From positions 1-5,346 of the forward strand of contig JARIBR010000321.1 of NCBI GenBank assembly GCA_029258695.1: 5,346 nt of DNA, read 5' to 3'. A program made the position numbers and the translations under genes. A model generated the notes under the pieces. The model was not told the DNA's origin and did not search any database. It saw nothing but the letters and a program-made list of their open reading frames with translations. Shown here one piece after another: positions 41-5,346 of the stretch (positions within the stretch are counted from its first letter, which is position 1; every line of letters starts with the position of its first letter). The stretch comes from Quadrisphaera sp. GTDB lineage: Bacteria > Actinomycetota > Actinomycetes > Actinomycetales > Quadrisphaeraceae.

Positions 41-2140
41 TCACACGACGGTGAGCGTGACCGACGAGCCGACCTCCACCATCGAGCCCGGCTCGACGGA
101 CTGGTCGCGCACGGTGCCGAAGATGCCGCCGAGCACGTTCTCCACCTGCACGCCGAGGCCGAGGTCCGCCAGGCTCGTGCGCGCCTGGTCGACCTGCTGG
201 CCCACGAGGTCCGGGACGGCCACCTGCTCCGGCCCGTCGGAGACGACGAGGTCCACCGGGTCCCCGCGGAAGCGCTGGCCCGAGGACGGGTCGGCGGCGA
301 TGACCGCGTCCCGCGGGACCTCCGGGTCGCGCTGGCGGGTGACCTGCCCGACGCTGAGGCCGGCCTCGGTGAGGCGCTGCTCGGCGTCGCCCTGGCTCAG
401 CCCGCGCACGTCGGGGACGTCGATCGGCTGGCGTCCCTGGGAGATGGTGACGTCGACCGTGGAGCCCTGGCGCAGCTCCTCCCCGCGAGGCGTGCCCTGG
501 GCGAGGACGTCACCGTCGGCCACGTCCTCGGAGAAGCCCTCAGTGATCTCCCCGAGGGCGAGCCCGACGGCCTCCAACGCCTCGCGGGCGTCGTCCAGCG
601 GCGTGTTCGTGAGGTCGGGGACGGCCACGGTCCGGGGTCCGCGCGAGAGCACCAGCTCCACGTCGCTGCCCGGGCGCACCCCGGAGCCGGCCTCGGGCTG
701 GGTGGCGACCACCTCGCCGACGGGCGCGTCCTCGCTGTACTGCTCGCTCGTGCTCACCCCGAGGTCGCGCGAGGCGAGCGTCGTCGTGGCCTCGGACTCG
801 CTGGCCCCGACGACGTTGGGGACGTCCACGCGCTGCAGCGGGCCGGCGAGCACGGCCCAGAGCACCGCGCCGACGACGGCCACGGCGCCGAGGACCGCGA
901 GGAGCGCCGTCGGGCGGCGTCGCCGGGCACCCCCGCCGGCAGCGACGCTCCCCGAGCCGCCGCCCACGGCGGGCGAAGGTCGAGCGCCGCGTGCGGCCGG
1001 TGCGATGAGGGAGGCGGCCGGGTTGGTCGGGGTGTTCTGCCGGCGGGAGCCGCCGGGCGGCGCACCACCGGCCCGGCCCTCGGGGTCCCGGCGCCCGCCA
1101 CCGGGGCGGGGGAGAGGGCGGCGGGGGATGCGCTCCGTCGGGCCGGTGATGGTCGGCAGCGGCCCGGTGCGCTCCACCTCCGCCTCCAGCGCCTCCCCGA
1201 TGGGCAGCGCCAGCACGTGCTCGTGGCGGTTGATGGCCCGCGTGCTCCCGTCGGAGACGACCGCGGGCGCGTCCGGAGCGCGCACCGCCACGTCCGGGTC
1301 GAGGCCCTGGCGCACCTCGCGGACCGCGTCGGCCAGCTCGCCGGCGTCGCGCGGGCGCAGCGACGGGTCGCGCGCCGTCGCCCAGGCGAGGAGCTCGTCG
1401 ACCTCCGCGGGCAGGTGCGGCTGGCGGGAGGAGGGGGCGGGGACGTCCTGGGCGACGTGGGCGAAGGCCACCTGGGCCGGCACGTCGCCGGTGAAGGGGA
1501 GCGAGCCGGTGAGCAGCTCGAAGGCGACCACCCCGGCGGCGTAGACGTCCGCGCGGGCGTCGGCGCGTCCGGAGGTGAGCAGCTCCGGGGCGAGGTAGGC
1601 GACGGTCCCGATGAGCACCGACGCGGTGGTCGCCGAGGCCGAGGCCGCGCGGGCGAGGCCGAAGTCCGCCACGCGCAGGCGCCCGTCGAGGCCCATGAGG
1701 ATGTTCTCGGGCTTGACGTCGCGGTGCACCAGGTCGGCGGCGTGGGCGGAGGCCAGCGCGTCGGACAGGGCCGCGACGAGGTCCAGCGCCTCACCGACGG
1801 GCCGCGCGCCGCGGTGGGCGAGCAGCTCGCGCAACGTCGAGCCGGGCACGTGCTCCATGGCGAGGTAGACGGTGCCGCCGTCGCTGCCCTGGTCGTAGAC
1901 GGCCACGATCCCCGGGTGGCTCAGGCGCGCGGCCGAGCGGGCCTCGCGGGCGAAGCGCTCCACGAAGACAGGGTCCGTCGCCAGGTGGGGGTGCATGACC
2001 TTGAGCGCGACCGGACGCCCCAGCCGCGCGTCCGTGGCGAGGTAGACGGTGGCCATGCCGCCCGCGGCGATGCGCGAGACCACCTCGTAGCGCCCGTCGA
2101 CGAGGGAGCCGACCAGGGGGTCTCGGACTGCCGCGGGCAC
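41..2140 (-). CDS. pknL: PASTA-domain transmembrane Ser/Thr protein kinase (PknL/PknB type)
   Basis: A 699-aa membrane Ser/Thr kinase, probably sensing peptidoglycan fragments or lipid II outside the cell and phosphorylating proteins inside. Residues 14-275 form a complete Hanks-type domain: glycine-rich loop IAAGGMATVY (about 24-33), ATP-binding Lys47 (VALK), helix-C Glu66, catalytic HRDVKPEN with Asp141, DFG 159-161, and APE 184-186. Thr171/Thr172 in the activation loop are likely autophosphorylation sites. A Pro/Gly-rich linker (about 280-405) ends in RRRR (406-409), followed by one membrane helix (about 411-433). Four PASTA repeats follow, at about 437-501, 504-569, 572-637 and 639-699. 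GTG 2140 is effectively the only possible start: an in-frame TAG lies four codons upstream, and the next in-frame GTG is inside the kinase fold. There is no Shine-Dalgarno. It lies 41 nt after the LysM gene, same strand. The symbol rests on linkage to the Rv2175c homologue; M. tuberculosis PknL lacks PASTA domains, corynebacterial PknL has them. PknB-like is the alternative name. Confidence 0.95.
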   Translation of the reverse strand: MPAAVRDPLVGSLVDGRYEVVSRIAAGGMATVYLATDARLGRPVALKVMHPHLATDPVFVERFAREARSAARLSHPGIVAVYDQGSDGGTVYLAMEHVPGSTLRELLAHRGARPVGEALDLVAALSDALASAHAADLVHRDVKPENILMGLDGRLRVADFGLARAASASATTASVLIGTVAYLAPELLTSGRADARADVYAAGVVAFELLTGSLPFTGDVPAQVAFAHVAQDVPAPSSRQPHLPAEVDELLAWATARDPSLRPRDAGELADAVREVRQGLDPDVAVRAPDAPAVVSDGSTRAINRHEHVLALPIGEALEAEVERTGPLPTITGPTERIPRRPLPRPGGGRRDPEGRAGGAPPGGSRRQNTPTNPAASLIAPAARGARPSPAVGGGSGSVAAGGGARRRRPTALLAVLGAVAVVGAVLWAVLAGPLQRVDVPNVVGASESEATTTLASRDLGVSTSEQYSEDAPVGEVVATQPEAGSGVRPGSDVELVLSRGPRTVAVPDLTNTPLDDAREALEAVGLALGEITEGFSEDVADGDVLAQGTPRGEELRQGSTVDVTISQGRQPIDVPDVRGLSQGDAEQRLTEAGLSVGQVTRQRDPEVPRDAVIAADPSSGQRFRGDPVDLVVSDGPEQVAVPDLVGQQVDQARTSLADLGLGVQVENVLGGIFGTVRDQSVEPGSMVEVGSSVTLTVV

Positions 2141-2181: not shown

Positions 2182-3300
2182 TCAGCGGTAGCGAGCCGTC
2201 AGCGTGGTGACGTTCGCGACGTAGCGCACGGTGTCGGGGAACGGGCCGTCCTCGCGGATGCTGCGCAGCCCCTGGTAGTACCCGCCGATGGCGGCGTCGG
2301 TGTCGTCGGTGCTGGCGGTCAGGGCCCGCAGGATCGCCACGCCGGCGACGGCGTTGTCCCGGGGGTCCAGCAGGTCGAGCTCGCGTCCGACGATGCTCGA
2401 GGCCCAGTCCCCGGAGGTGGGGATCACCTGCATCGCGCCCACGGCGTCGGCCGGTGAGACGGCGCGGGCGTTGAACCCCGACTCCTGGTGGGCGACGGCC
2501 AGGGCCAGCGCGGGGTCCACGCCCATCTCTCGTGCGACGGCGGCGATGATCTCGCGCACCTCGCTGCGGCCGGGCACGCTGCGGGCCCTCAGGGCGTCGC
2601 GGTCGGCCGTGGCCGCGGCGGTCACCGCCGGGGGATAGGTGCGACCCGCGAACGTCGAGGCCACCGGTCGGCGCTCGGCGGTCGCCGGGGCGTCCGTCGG
2701 CAGGGTGATCACCTGGCCGGGCCGGAGCGGGGCGTCGCGGGGCAGGTCGCTGGCCGCCAGCAGCGCGGGCAGGGGCACGCCGGCCGCGGAGGCCAGAGCG
2801 CTGAGGGTGTCTCCGCGGCGGACCACCACCTGGACGGGGCCGGGCCCCTGCGGAGGGGTGGTGCCCTCCGGGCCCGGGGTGGCCGCAGGGACCGTGAGCT
2901 CCTGGCCCTCGATGATGCGGTAGGGAGCCTCGATGCCGTTCGCCGCGGCGAGGGAGGCCACGGAGGTCCCCGTCCTCCGGGCGATGCCGCTCAGGGTCTC
3001 GCCGGGGGCGACGACGTGCGGTGCGGACGCGGCGGAGCCCTGTGGCGCGGGCACCGTCAGGCTGGTGCCCGCGAGGATCGTGCCGGTGTCGGTGAGGCCG
3101 TTGGCCCGGGCGAGGGCCTCGACGCTGACCCCGGTGGCGAGCGCGGCGTGGCTCAGGGTCTGTCCGGCGGGAACGGTCCAGGTGGTCGGTTCGGCGGCGT
3201 GGACGGGCTCGGCGGCGAGCACGCCGAGCGCCGGGGCGCCGACGACCGCAGCCCCGAGGGCCGCCAGCGCTGCAGCCGTGGGTCGGGTGGGGGGTGCCAT
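2182..3300 (-). CDS. Secreted triple-LysM lytic transglycosylase
   Basis: A 372-aa exported peptidoglycan enzyme that should bind the wall through LysM domains and cleave the MurNAc-GlcNAc glycan backbone. Residues 1-35 look like a signal peptide: an Ala/Leu-rich core and likely cleavage after VHA (A35). Three LysM domains follow, at about 39-83, 94-137 and 156-201, joined by Pro/Gly/Ala-rich linkers. A linker (about 202-245) leads to an SLT/Slt70-like domain (about 247-365) with HQESGFN, where Glu273 is the predicted catalytic acid, then AVGAMQVIP (287-294 region), the GxMQ motif of the family, and a late GGYYQG motif. ATG 3300 is chosen because GAGGAG lies five nucleotides upstream and the signal peptide begins at once. 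The open frame continues upstream to 3975 only as out-of-frame read over the regulator gene. The kinase follows 41 nt downstream, probably in one transcript. It may supply or modify muropeptides sensed by the PASTA kinase (inference). Confidence 0.93.
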   Translation of the reverse strand: MAPPTRPTAAALAALGAAVVGAPALGVLAAEPVHAAEPTTWTVPAGQTLSHAALATGVSVEALARANGLTDTGTILAGTSLTVPAPQGSAASAPHVVAPGETLSGIARRTGTSVASLAAANGIEAPYRIIEGQELTVPAATPGPEGTTPPQGPGPVQVVVRRGDTLSALASAAGVPLPALLAASDLPRDAPLRPGQVITLPTDAPATAERRPVASTFAGRTYPPAVTAAATADRDALRARSVPGRSEVREIIAAVAREMGVDPALALAVAHQESGFNARAVSPADAVGAMQVIPTSGDWASSIVGRELDLLDPRDNAVAGVAILRALTASTDDTDAAIGGYYQGLRSIREDGPFPDTVRYVANVTTLTARYR

Positions 3301-3538: not shown

Positions 3539-4015
3539 GTGAGCGCCAAGGATTCCACCGTCCGGGGTCGCAGCGAGAGGGACGTCCGTGCCGCGCGCAG
3601 CGCGCAGGGGCGCGGAGCCCCTCCGGGGGCCGTGGCCGACGCGGAGGCTCCCGTGCTCGCCGAGCTCCACGAGCTGGTCGGCGGGGACGACGCGTGGCTG
3701 ACGGTGCCCGATGCCGCCCAGGTGCTCGACGTCGAGGTCTCACGGGTGCGCCGGCTCCTGGACGACCGGGTGCTCGTGGGGGTACGACGTGGTCGCCCCC
3801 GGGTCCTGTCCGTGCCGCGCGTCCTCGTCGAGCCCGAGCCGCTGGTCTCGCTCCCGGGGACCGTCACGGTGCTCTCCGACGCGGGGTACACCGACGCCGA
3901 GGCGCTGCGCTGGCTCTTCACGACCGAGCCCGTGCTGGGGCAGGCGCCCATCGCGGCGCTGCGCGAGCGGCGCATCGCCCCGGTCCGCCGTCAGGCGCAG
4001 TCGCTGCTGCTCTGA
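3539..4015 (+). CDS. Rv2175c-family winged-helix DNA-binding protein, likely kinase substrate
   Basis: A 158-aa homologue of M. tuberculosis Rv2175c, a DNA-binding protein known to be phosphorylated by PknL on an N-terminal threonine (Thr9). Residues 53-90 hold the helix-turn-helix part: WLTVPDAAQVLDVEVSRVRR, then a basic wing with VGVRRGRPRV. Residues about 103-158 match the family C-terminal part, with SLPGTVTVLSDAGYTDAEAL, RWLFT and a closing RRQAQSLL helix. Residues 1-40 look disordered and basic, and contain DSTVRGR with Thr7, similarly placed to Thr9 of Rv2175c. GTG 3539 keeps that tail but has no Shine-Dalgarno. GTG 3653 (residue 39) has GGAGG five nucleotides upstream and would give about 120 aa without the tail. 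I prefer 3539 because the mycobacterial protein also has an N-terminal tail; the start is not settled. The gene is divergent from the LysM-kinase unit, consistent with a kinase-substrate pair. Confidence 0.9.
   Translation: MSAKDSTVRGRSERDVRAARSAQGRGAPPGAVADAEAPVLAELHELVGGDDAWLTVPDAAQVLDVEVSRVRRLLDDRVLVGVRRGRPRVLSVPRVLVEPEPLVSLPGTVTVLSDAGYTDAEALRWLFTTEPVLGQAPIAALRERRIAPVRRQAQSLLL
3643..3647 (+). promoter_or_regulatory. Internal Shine-Dalgarno for an alternative Rv2175c-like start at 3653
   Basis: GGAGG followed by CTCCC and an in-frame GTG at 3653 is a better ribosome site than anything before 3539. If used, the protein loses its first 38 residues, including the candidate phospho-acceptor Thr7, but keeps the whole DNA-binding domain. 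It may be a second start or the true one. Confidence 0.35.
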
Positions 4016-4119: not shown

Positions 4120-4208
4120 CCGACGCGAACCCTGCATGCTCGAGCGACACGCCGCGCCACCCACGGGGACACGCCGGCGGTGTGGCGAGGACGCAGGATC
4201 CGCGTCGG
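4120..4208. repeat. Long imperfect palindromic element, left copy
   Basis: Arms 4120-4142 and 4186-4208 are inverted copies pairing at 19 of 23 positions, around a 43-nt centre. The centre has an inner ACAC (4147-4150)/GTGT (4180-4183) pair. The right arm also holds a local GACGC-AGGATCC-GCGTC hairpin (4190-4206). The segment 4186-4210 matches 5301-5325 at 22 of 25 bases. The left part, 4120-4155, matches the reverse complement of 5287-5323, including an exact 12-mer GCGACACGCCGC. It may be a bidirectional terminator for the convergent genes, a REP/MITE-like dispersed repeat, or one end of a cassette around the nuclease gene. It is not obviously coding on either strand. Confidence 0.7.
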
Positions 4209-4266
4209 TGATGACCCTGGCGCTCGTCCGTCCGGCGCTGGGGCCCTCGTGCGTCCTCTGCGGGCG

Positions 4267-5163
4267 TCACCGCCGGCGCACGTCCGTCCAGCACGGAGGG
4301 CGGCCGCGGTCGTAGGTCTCCAGGACGGTGGCGACCATCCGCTCCGGTGCCCCGACGACGTCCTCGTACGTCACCCGCAACCACACGTAGCCGTGGCGGC
4401 TCAGCTCGGAGTCGCGGCGTCGGTCGCGGCGGTAGCTGGCACGGTCCGCGTGGTAGGCGAAACCGTCGGGCTCGACGACGAGCCACCCGTCCACCAGCAG
4501 GTCCACCCGACCCACGCCCGTGAGGACGACCTGCGTCTCGACCCTCAGGCCGAGCCGCGTGAACGCCCGCACCAGCGGCACACGGGCGAAGGACTCCATC
4601 GCCGAGCCAGACCGCCGGTCCGCCAGACGCACCGCCGTGCGCCAGGCCGCGTCGGTGCGCGACCCCGTGGCGACCAACGAGCGCTCCGACACGAGACCGC
4701 GTGACAGCGCCTGGTCGACGAGGCTGACGACGGCGACGAGGTCCAGGCACCGGGACGCGGTGAGCAGGACGAGAACCGGGTCCATGCGTCGTCCCCCACG
4801 GTGGAGCCCGGTGCGGTGCACCACCGTCCCGGGCCACGTGGCCGTGGTCCCCCGTCCGGTGACCAGGTGGGTGCGCTCGTCGGGGCACAGGACCGTCAGG
4901 CCCAGCTCGCGGGCCGCGTCGCCGCAGCTGAACGCCGCGCGGTCACCCCCGAGCGCGGCTCGCGCGACCTGCGCCGCGTGGGCGCCGGGCAGGGCGTACA
5001 GGCTGGGGGCCAGGCGGGCGACGAGACCACGTTCCCGGGCCCTGCGGAGCGAGGCCCGACCCACCCCCGCGCGGGCCAGCTCCGCCCAGCGGGCCGCACC
5101 CCCTGCACCGGTCAGCGCCTCGATCGCGTCCACGGGGCCACGGTGACGGATCGGTCCCCTCAC
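4267..5163 (-). CDS. AbiEi-like antitoxin domain fused to a DUF559/PD-(D/E)XK nuclease-like domain
   Basis: A 298-aa protein of a type common in actinobacterial genomes. Residues about 11-60 resemble the AbiEi winged-helix N-terminus (AIEALTGAGGAARWAEL, then a basic SLRRARERGLVARLAPSLYALPG stretch read across 38-60). A middle region (about 65-185) resembles the AbiEi C-terminal part. Residues about 186-285 look like a Vsr/DUF559 endonuclease fold: SAMES with Glu190, RVDLLVDG with Asp221, and VVEPDGFAYH with Glu231 and Asp233. A basic RRDRRRD helix (245-251) and GYVWLRVTYEDV follow. The family usually has ExDG, and EPDG fits. Nuclease activity and substrate are inferred only. No AbiEii-type nucleotidyltransferase toxin is in the window. 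GTG 5163 is the outermost start; GTG 5133 (residue 11) matches the usual domain beginning and may be the true one. Neither has a Shine-Dalgarno. The gene is convergent with the regulator gene and bracketed by two related palindromes. Confidence 0.85.
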   Translation of the reverse strand: MRGPIRHRGPVDAIEALTGAGGAARWAELARAGVGRASLRRARERGLVARLAPSLYALPGAHAAQVARAALGGDRAAFSCGDAARELGLTVLCPDERTHLVTGRGTTATWPGTVVHRTGLHRGGRRMDPVLVLLTASRCLDLVAVVSLVDQALSRGLVSERSLVATGSRTDAAWRTAVRLADRRSGSAMESFARVPLVRAFTRLGLRVETQVVLTGVGRVDLLVDGWLVVEPDGFAYHADRASYRRDRRRDSELSRHGYVWLRVTYEDVVGAPERMVATVLETYDRGRPPCWTDVRRR

Positions 5164-5189
5164 AGGGACGGCAGGACCGGCGACCTGTG
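5161..5189. promoter_or_regulatory. Inverted repeat over the AbiEi-nuclease gene start
   Basis: CACAGG (5161-5166) and CCTGTG (5184-5189) form a perfect 6-bp inverted repeat with a 17-nt gap. It overlaps the outer GTG start and the likely promoter region. AbiEi antitoxins are known to repress their own promoters through inverted repeats, so this is a candidate operator, but it is short and could be chance. Confidence 0.25.
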
Positions 5190-5197
5190 GACGGCGG

Positions 5198-5216
5198 GCC
5201 CCGACCGCGCCGGGGC
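5198..5216. repeat. Short GC hairpin upstream of the AbiEi-nuclease gene
   Basis: GCCCCG (5198-5203) and CGGGGC (5211-5216) form a 6-bp stem with a 7-nt loop. It lies between the gene start and the right palindromic element. A role as operator or terminator cannot be told apart, and chance is possible at this GC content. Confidence 0.25.
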
Positions 5217-5234
5217 GGTGGACGACCCAGACGG

Positions 5235-5322
5235 CGACACGGATCCTGCAGCCTCGCGCCGAGGTGCGGTGTGTCGTGTCGCTGCGGCGGCGTGTCGCCC
5301 CGAGGCCGCAGGATCCCTGTCG
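5235..5322. repeat. Long imperfect palindromic element, right copy
   Basis: Arms 5235-5256 and 5301-5322 are inverted copies pairing at 20 of 22 positions, with mismatches only at 5240/5317 and 5250/5307. The centre is 44 nt. Each arm contains a GGATCC next to CTGC or GCAG. The centre carries GTGTCG three times (5271-5276, 5276-5281, 5292-5297); the last lies within GTGTCGCC (5292-5299), the inverted copy of GGCGACAC at 5233-5240. Size, arm length, centre length and core sequence match the left copy at 4120-4208. The stem is too long and regular for chance. Function is unknown: dispersed palindromic repeat, terminator or cassette end. Confidence 0.75.
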
Positions 5323-5346
5323 GTGCGGGGTGCGGGGTGCGGGGTG
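5322..5346. repeat. G-rich 7-bp tandem repeat at the window edge
   Basis: GGTGCGG is repeated three times (5322-5328, 5329-5335, 5336-5342), followed by GGTG at the end, so the array continues past the window. Runs of four G recur every seven bases, which could favour a G-quadruplex. It begins at the last base of the right palindromic element, and is roughly the mirror of the C-rich repeats outside the left element. Confidence 0.75.

Follow-up and report, generated by a model that had tools for sequence, protein, structure and literature searches.

In a 5,346-nucleotide stretch of a Quadrisphaera genome (the window), an orphan gene for a 298-residue protein (4267–5163, minus strand) lies between two long palindromes of one type. 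The protein joins an AbiEi_4 winged helix and an AbiEi-like middle part to an MTES_1575/DUF559 nuclease domain of the Vsr/EDxHD type. With moderate confidence, we read the locus as a REPtron-like unit built around a different enzyme, in which an AbiEi reader fused to a Vsr/homing-type nuclease is paired with its own inverted repeat. REPtrons (RAYT/TnpAREP with REP, BIME or REPIN) likewise consist of a resident gene near palindromes of one type that are mostly dispersed genome-wide (PMC8266576 and PMC3733652, in excerpt).

Unit A (89 bp, 4120–4208) has 23-nt outer arms at 4120–4142 and 4186–4208, paired at 19 of 23 positions around a 43-nt centre. Unit B (88 bp, 5235–5322) has 22-nt arms at 5235–5256 and 5301–5322, paired at 20 of 22 positions around a 44-nt centre (pairs were counted by reading, and neither unit is assigned a strand). 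The segment 4186–4210 is identical to 5301–5325 at 22 of 25 positions (88%). The inner motif GCGACACGCCGC of unit A (4144–4155, plus strand), which is partly common to other family units, recurs in inverse form as GCGGCGTGTCGC in unit B (5287–5298, minus strand), and the two units stand 58 and 71 bp from the ends of the gene. This arrangement had been described in an earlier, sequence-only reading of the window, and its arms, pairings, centres, 22/25 match, inverted 12-nt motif and distances to a single gene were all confirmed. As an observation of its own, units of distant genes with other arms (L320, L322, L175 and L180) also contain GACACGCCG/CGGCGTGTC, the inner motif of both window palindromes, which suggests a module common to units with differing arms.

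Taken alone, the window makes a modest, suggestive case, and its relatives decide it. With an ungapped dyad score of 16, unit B ranks first in the window, a value that the best dyad reaches in 2 of 25 Markov-shuffled windows; the score of unit A, 11, is reached in all 25. In the shuffled-sequence control that the earlier reading had named as a possible refutation, B outranks the best dyad of 23 windows and A does not stand out. Both units fold more stably as DNA than their own shuffles, a check also proposed there, with z values on the two strands of -2.5 and -3.1 (A) and of -3.1 and -5.5 (B). Compared with each other, the two flanks in the window score 20.0, just over the 95% point of 649 control window pairs, 19.5. 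One explanation of such values is chance dyads in 77% G+C sequence, with no common origin, in keeping with the ordinary ungapped score of unit A and the two shuffled windows that match B. It is contradicted by the twin statistics and control pairs of the wider gene family given below, and by the two other genomes in which family members occur, each with members on either flank of a homologous gene. We regard chance as extremely improbable.

The unit of about 89 bp is a dispersed palindrome family, scattered through related genomes. A covariance model, R1, was built from six units, two from the window and four from genome G001 (metagenome-assembled genome Quadrisphaera sp. cluster2_bin.45), and run over 13 family genomes; 150 first-look candidates were scored per genome, so that all counts are lower bounds. 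Both window units, being part of the model input, match it (A at 4120–4208 with 83.1 bits, B at 5234–5323 with 88.3 bits). In G001, units are found in at least seven places at E≤1, three of them independent of the four used in model building. G002, which contributed nothing to the model, has at least 12 places at E≤1, 9 of them at E≤0.25, with both gene flanks included. G007 and G010 have one weak place each at E≤1, and no window-type unit was found at that threshold in the remaining nine of the 13 genomes. The dispersed palindromic repeat family that the sequence-only reading had offered as one possibility is thus supported. A blastn search of nine genomes with one unit from L001, the G001 locus, gave nothing beyond G001 with an E value below 7e-4; the covariance model was required.

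The arms of the dispersed units pair. Among the 13 units outside the model input, 75.5% of arm cells are paired, as opposed to 35–42% after one arm has been shifted by one, two or three bases, and across 19 units two or more Watson-Crick types occur at 15 of the 22 pair positions; these statistics are biased upward, since the units were found by a model that itself scores those pairs, and both sets still count L308, probably a chance match. Covariation on the six-unit alignment did not exceed its column-shuffle control. Two shorter probes were tried and rejected. The conserved core GCAGGATCC-NN-GTCG (at most one mismatch) has 20 sites in G001 against 4 for the reversed control, and none of the 20 falls at the model's seven places; the core thus varies from one relative to another. 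For the half-site CGACGYGRACGCTGC (one mismatch allowed), G001 has 39 sites against 4 in the control, and counts are nearer the control in the seven other genomes.

Matching repeats bracket most genes of the wider family. A profile, A2, made from 26 relatives gave 3–9 matches at E≤1e-10 in each of the 13 family genomes (all candidates were scored except in three genomes, where 150 of 153–168 were). At 66 loci the 450 bp on the left were compared, in either orientation, with the 450 bp on the right, and the threshold, 19.5, is the 95% point for 649 pairs of equally long windows from other parts of these loci. Apart from the window, which was excluded, 62 genes were testable and 50 of them have matching repeats on both sides. 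The four loci dropped at contig ends are L144, L150, L161 and L181, of which L144 nevertheless has twins (31.0). When syntenic genes are counted once, the cluster median exceeds the threshold in 21 of 27 clusters, and the highest-scoring member does so in 23 of 27. By comparison, 2 of 27 TetR genes from the same 13 genomes do so (three of 30 loci dropped at contig ends; spans assumed to be 600 bases starting just before the helix-turn-helix), as does 1 of 42 Rv2175c loci, where the default gene position was used in 35 and is wrong for at least three (L009, L026 and L041), which thus stand for arbitrary positions. Beyond these genomes, 29 loci from other members of the class were compared: 17 exceed 16.5, the 95% point of mismatched flank pairs, 10 exceed 19.5, and three exceed 54.2, the 99% point of mismatched pairs, whose maximum is 211.5. 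The best class locus, L336, has a 92-bp palindrome almost unchanged on both sides.

The flanks take two shapes. Some are hairpin pairs of about 55–95 bp, like those of the window; others are arrays of shorter sites that are inverted between left and right. Several paralogues occur per genome, each with different repeats. Spacing within the arrays is regular, at about 31–32 bp for CCGTGATCATGG, 41 bp for TCGCTGCCGAAG and GCGGACTTCGTAGCC, 43–44 bp for GATCTTGGCGATC and 46–47 bp for CTTCTGCATGC, as seen at L185, L191, L341, L353 and further array loci, and is possibly set by the DNA helix.

Could such flanks serve autoregulation or termination only, the upstream palindrome being an operator at which the AbiEi-like winged helix represses its own gene and the downstream one a terminator or second operator, with no cutting and no movement? 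The palindromes are close to both gene ends, and AbiEi and Rv2827c are autoregulated by way of 23-bp inverted repeats in the promoter (PMC7319586, in excerpt). Autoregulation does not predict twins at 50 of 62 family genes as opposed to 2 of 27 TetR regulators, nor dispersed copies at many unrelated places. It also fails to predict the synteny break at repeat edges and the invariant nuclease-domain residues described below. We consider it unlikely.

The repeats co-diverge with the protein at non-syntenic loci. In 2117 non-syntenic gene pairs, a flank similarity of 25 or more was found in 4 of 1837 with a normalised protein score below 0.2, in 3 of 188 at 0.2–0.4, in 11 of 75 at 0.4–0.6 and in 10 of 17 at 0.6 or above. 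For the 35 pairs scoring at least 0.5, mean flank similarity is 24.7, compared with a mean of 15.7 and a maximum of 17.5 over 1000 label permutations. Partial correlation with the repeat is 0.20–0.22 for the AbiEi parts given the nuclease and 0.03–0.14 for the nuclease given the AbiEi parts, a slight AbiEi edge that is too weak to lean on. Together with the twins and with the co-occurrence described next, this co-divergence supports the link that the sequence-only reading drew between the palindromes and the enclosed nuclease-like protein. At syntenic loci we observe differences of repeat type: L186 (G013) carries TGACCGAGGTCA repeats and its counterparts L196 (G012) and L200 (G009) carry GATCTTGGCGATC, and L155 (G004) has repeats of the CTTCTGCATGC type as opposed to the GTGACGCCGGAC type at L145, L148 and L153. 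Syntenic genes with CTTCTGCATGC and GTGACGCCGGAC flanks indicate that the repeat type can change in place.

Dispersal follows gene presence in a subfamily flanked by CCGTGATCATGG, with one exception. This subfamily is a distant branch whose Pfam matches are below the cut-offs. The repeat occurs in 135 copies in G003, 106 in G004, 109 in G005, 264 in G009, 110 in G012 and 183 in G013, and in 0–6 copies in seven other genomes; the reversed control is absent from all. Homologs of the flanked protein with at least 63% identity are found in five of the six high-copy genomes and in none of the seven low-copy ones, where the best is 48%. G003 and G013 have two each, G012 one, G004 two that are each split over two frames, and G009 two incomplete ones, with tail pieces at contig starts. 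Sites adjoin the genes at L185, L191, L193, L195, L352, L341 and L353, and at L365 on the side covered by the contig. The exception is G005, with a homolog of only 42–50% identity and no sites near it. In 400-kb samples, all 20 exact CCGTGATCATGG sites of G013 and 8 of 9 in G009 lie below the random median of codon periodicity, that is, they look intergenic, and five of ten close neighbour pairs in the G013 sample are 31–32 bp apart on the same strand, near three helical turns. Samples of the same size show clear dispersal for the shared flank 11-mers CCATGATCACG, GACCGAGGTCA, CGCTGCCGAAG and ACGATCAAGGA and slight or no dispersal for other types, many of them showing none and some being almost confined to the gene's own flanks.

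The intergenic look of the G013 sites and the spacing of their close pairs would also fit a self mark or genome-wide binding network, in which the protein sits on many chromosomal palindromes, either for chromosome organisation or as a defence nuclease sequestered until invasion. PADLOC AbiEi profiles match the N-terminal part of the orphan protein, as a defence role would have it. A network accounts poorly for repeat types that, in the samples, hardly leave the gene's flanks, and for the 109 sites that G005 keeps without a close homolog; neither recognised neighbour (Rv2175c, or the squalene/phytoene synthase of L001) is an obvious partner in defence. We judge this explanation to be quite unlikely.

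Evidence of movement comes from sister loci. In G003, G012 and G013, the neighbours that in G005 flank most of a MerR-like gene enclose a CCGTGATCATGG block. G003 and G005 are 93–95% identical in the flanking DNA; this identity ends at 3032 (3027 by blastn), with the left repeats beginning at 3034, and resumes at 4159, inside the last six bases of the right repeats. The breaks in G003 are therefore within 7 bp of the repeat edges, and those in G013 and G012 are 9–22 bp outside the repeats. The repeat-gene-repeat block takes the place of about 1.05 kb. A remnant that corresponds to the final 71 bases of the MerR-like frame persists in G003, which argues that the block is the newcomer. At another locus, G003 has a palindrome (with a further partial copy), the gene and a palindrome; the matching interval of G013, with identical neighbours, holds a single palindrome of that type. 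This solo palindrome may reflect loss by recombination between twins, or the state before insertion. Block arrival and a solo palindrome at a gene-less site were seen once each. Two other gene-less sites were not counted: in G007 opposite L199, where the hairpin has another sequence, and in G011 opposite L205, where no matching repeat was readable. A syntenic site in G004, sought in L399, was not hit. Many family loci are syntenic between species, and the gene is therefore mainly resident.

These events raise the possibility of an ordinary homing-type or insertion sequence-like element, in which only the repeat-gene-repeat block moves, the palindromes are its ends and solo copies are remnants of gene loss. 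The block replacement, the solo palindrome and the resemblance of the nuclease domain to the homing endonuclease I-Bth0305I all fit. Set against them, 135, 264 and 183 copies in G003, G009 and G013 face two genes or incomplete genes in each, which would demand very many losses, and no target-site duplication was seen at the edges examined, those of the L185 block and of the window units, to a distance of 14 bp. We find an element of this sort improbable. The mobile cassette proposed in the sequence-only reading is thus supported at the sister loci only, no empty site having been found for the window's own unit; for its further suggestion that the cassette is non-autonomous and served by a transposase elsewhere, nothing was found in support, though no transposase search was made.

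The nearest relatives show the window's arrangement in different states. Orthologous loci were located with the Rv2175c gene as anchor. L001, whose Rv2175c protein is 93% identical to the window's, has the same order of Rv2175c, palindrome, gene and palindrome, followed by a squalene/phytoene synthase gene. Its orphan gene is broken, the remaining part being equivalent to residues 138–296 and split over two frames, and its left palindrome has 15 perfectly paired bases in a sequence unlike the window's. In the metagenome-assembled genome AVDCRST_MAG35 (L002/L144), a 46%-identical homolog has palindromes on both sides; their outer arms differ from those of the window, and the inner GCGACACGCCGC/GCGGCGTGTCGC motifs are identical in one of the two palindromes and almost identical in the second. 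This unit lies one gene further along and is reversed relative to Rv2175c, as compared with the window. The closest homologs of the window protein are in G001 (86% and 71%, in two pieces) and G002 (46%, plus a 59% piece), both bracketed by window-type units, with one gene decayed. In the other genomes among the nine searched with the window protein, the best matches are 38%, or 48% over 97 residues; G010–G013 were searched with the family profile only. In the nearest relative, both palindromes thus stand at the window's position around a decayed gene. In three Quadrisphaera-type genomes, the intergenic spot about one gene downstream of Rv2175c holds CCGTGATCATGG elements (L004 9277–9330, L005 7728–7844 and L014 10048–10247), and in L002 the window-type unit follows the gene adjoining Rv2175c; the surroundings of Rv2175c may be a hot spot for repeats of this sort.

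The enclosed protein has a predicted reader and a nuclease. In Pfam, AbiEi_4, MTES_1575 and DUF559 are above cut-off and nothing else is found at E≤0.1; NCBIfam gave no match. The AlphaFold2 model has a confidence (pLDDT) of 94.8. In fold searches, residues 9–182 (4618–5139, minus strand), the predicted reader of inverted repeats, match the AbiEi fold of 6y8q, and the C-terminal domain (residues 185–289, 4297–4611, minus strand) has the fold of Vsr and I-Bth0305I. Seven residues of this domain, E190, D221, E231, D233, H238, D247 and R250, are invariant across 74 aligned proteins, the window's included. Neither Pfam nor the fold matches of the two model halves reveal a HuH tyrosine transposase domain; a RAYT-like fold is likewise absent among the fold-search matches listed, an absence that carries no evidential weight. 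Source annotations name such genes 'very-short-patch-repair endonuclease', 'DUF559' or 'type IV TA AbiEi antitoxin' protein. To our knowledge, no role is known for them.

In the REPtron-like reading, the AbiEi-type part would read its cognate inverted repeat, and the Vsr/homing-type domain would cut or nick DNA at or near that repeat, the repeats perhaps being cut as hairpins or cruciforms. Repair of the cut would place copies of the palindrome, and now and then of the gene as well, at new intergenic positions, and later gene loss would leave a solo palindrome. As in REPtrons, the window, L001 and L144 genes are bracketed by palindromes of one type, and dispersal within a genome is found for the window type (G001 and G002) and for CCGTGATCATGG; family-wide, some repeats among the 50 of 62 twin-flanked genes are site arrays rather than hairpins. 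In REPtrons, too, gene presence often correlates with palindrome abundance, and some have palindromes concentrated near the gene (PMC8266576 and PMC3733652, in excerpt; PMC2817692 and PMC3116915 also deal with their anatomy). The differences are equally clear. The REPtron enzyme is a HuH tyrosine transposase, whereas here it is an AbiEi part joined to a Vsr/EDxHD-type nuclease; the GTAG/CTAC tag at the foot of REP palindromes was found neither inside nor within 6 bp of 18 window-type units; and one genome here has several paralogues with different repeats. TIRtrons, in which a gene lies between long inverted repeats, some forming moderately abundant families (PMC3733652, in excerpt), still use HuH tyrosine transposases. 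The stem 'actinobacteri' is absent from the main text of that paper.

The components also have separate precedents. AbiE type IV toxin-antitoxin systems (AbiEi, Rv2827c) share the fold of residues 9–182, and AbiEi proteins bind cognate 23-bp inverted repeats, a length close to the 22–23-bp arms of the window (PMC7319586, in excerpt). Unlike in AbiE, the neighbours recognised (Rv2175c for the window gene and, for L001, a squalene/phytoene synthase) include no AbiEii nucleotidyltransferase toxin, the protein carries a fused nuclease domain, and the repeats are both-sided and dispersed. The C-terminal domain resembles I-Bth0305I and Vsr in its fold and its conserved acidic and histidine residues, but belongs to a free-standing gene and is fused to an AbiEi-like reader. 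Vsr goes with Dcm; no DNA methyltransferase is among the four genes recognised in the window. The MTES_1575 nuclease domain has been described as part of large fusions (PMC3710099, in excerpt), and 'palindrom' is absent from the main text of that paper. A full-text literature search, covering few subscription journals and judged from the titles and abstract starts of the matches listed, gave no account of palindrome-bracketed AbiEi, DUF559 or MTES_1575 genes and no paper containing both 'AbiEi' and 'DUF559'.

More tentatively, at slightly less than even confidence, we propose that actinobacteria have a second, independently evolved REPtron-like class. Many paralogous AbiEi-Vsr nucleases would each found and maintain their own family of dispersed intergenic palindromes, co-divergence of reader and repeat would give new specificities, and entire repeat-gene-repeat blocks would now and then invade new loci without a transposase of a known class. 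If each gene is the partner of its own repeat family, one rule would cover both these orphan genes and many unnamed intergenic palindromes, and a REP-like system would exist without a HuH transposase. The many reader-repeat pairs offer a ready set for asking how AbiEi-type winged helices choose inverted repeats. Such orphan genes are common in actinobacteria, with profile matches at E≤1e-20 in at least 81 of 148 sampled genomes of the class (16 candidates were scored per genome, hence a lower bound).

By reading, the window is a segment of a high-G+C actinobacterial chromosome, and Quadrisphaera, Kineococcus and Pseudokineococcus are among the named relatives of its proteins in the protein database. 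Leftmost is a Ser/Thr kinase with PASTA domains (41–2140, minus strand), then a LysM/transglycosylase-like protein assigned by eye (2182–3300, minus strand) and, as left neighbour of the orphan gene, the Rv2175c-family DNA-binding protein (3539–4015, plus strand; Pfam PF18367 and PF21531). The right-hand neighbour falls outside the window. Rfam gave no match on either palindrome; its only match in the window at E≤1 is a sub-threshold small nucleolar RNA at 1484–1540. A plasmid-borne copy of unit B was considered and rejected: at E≤1, short and partial matches were obtained in 50 records (45 from Phaeobacter), none of which spans 80% of the query, and they were judged unrelated. The contig ends inside a GGTGCGG tandem repeat (5322–5346), and a similar tract lies in L001 shortly before the end of the squalene/phytoene synthase gene.

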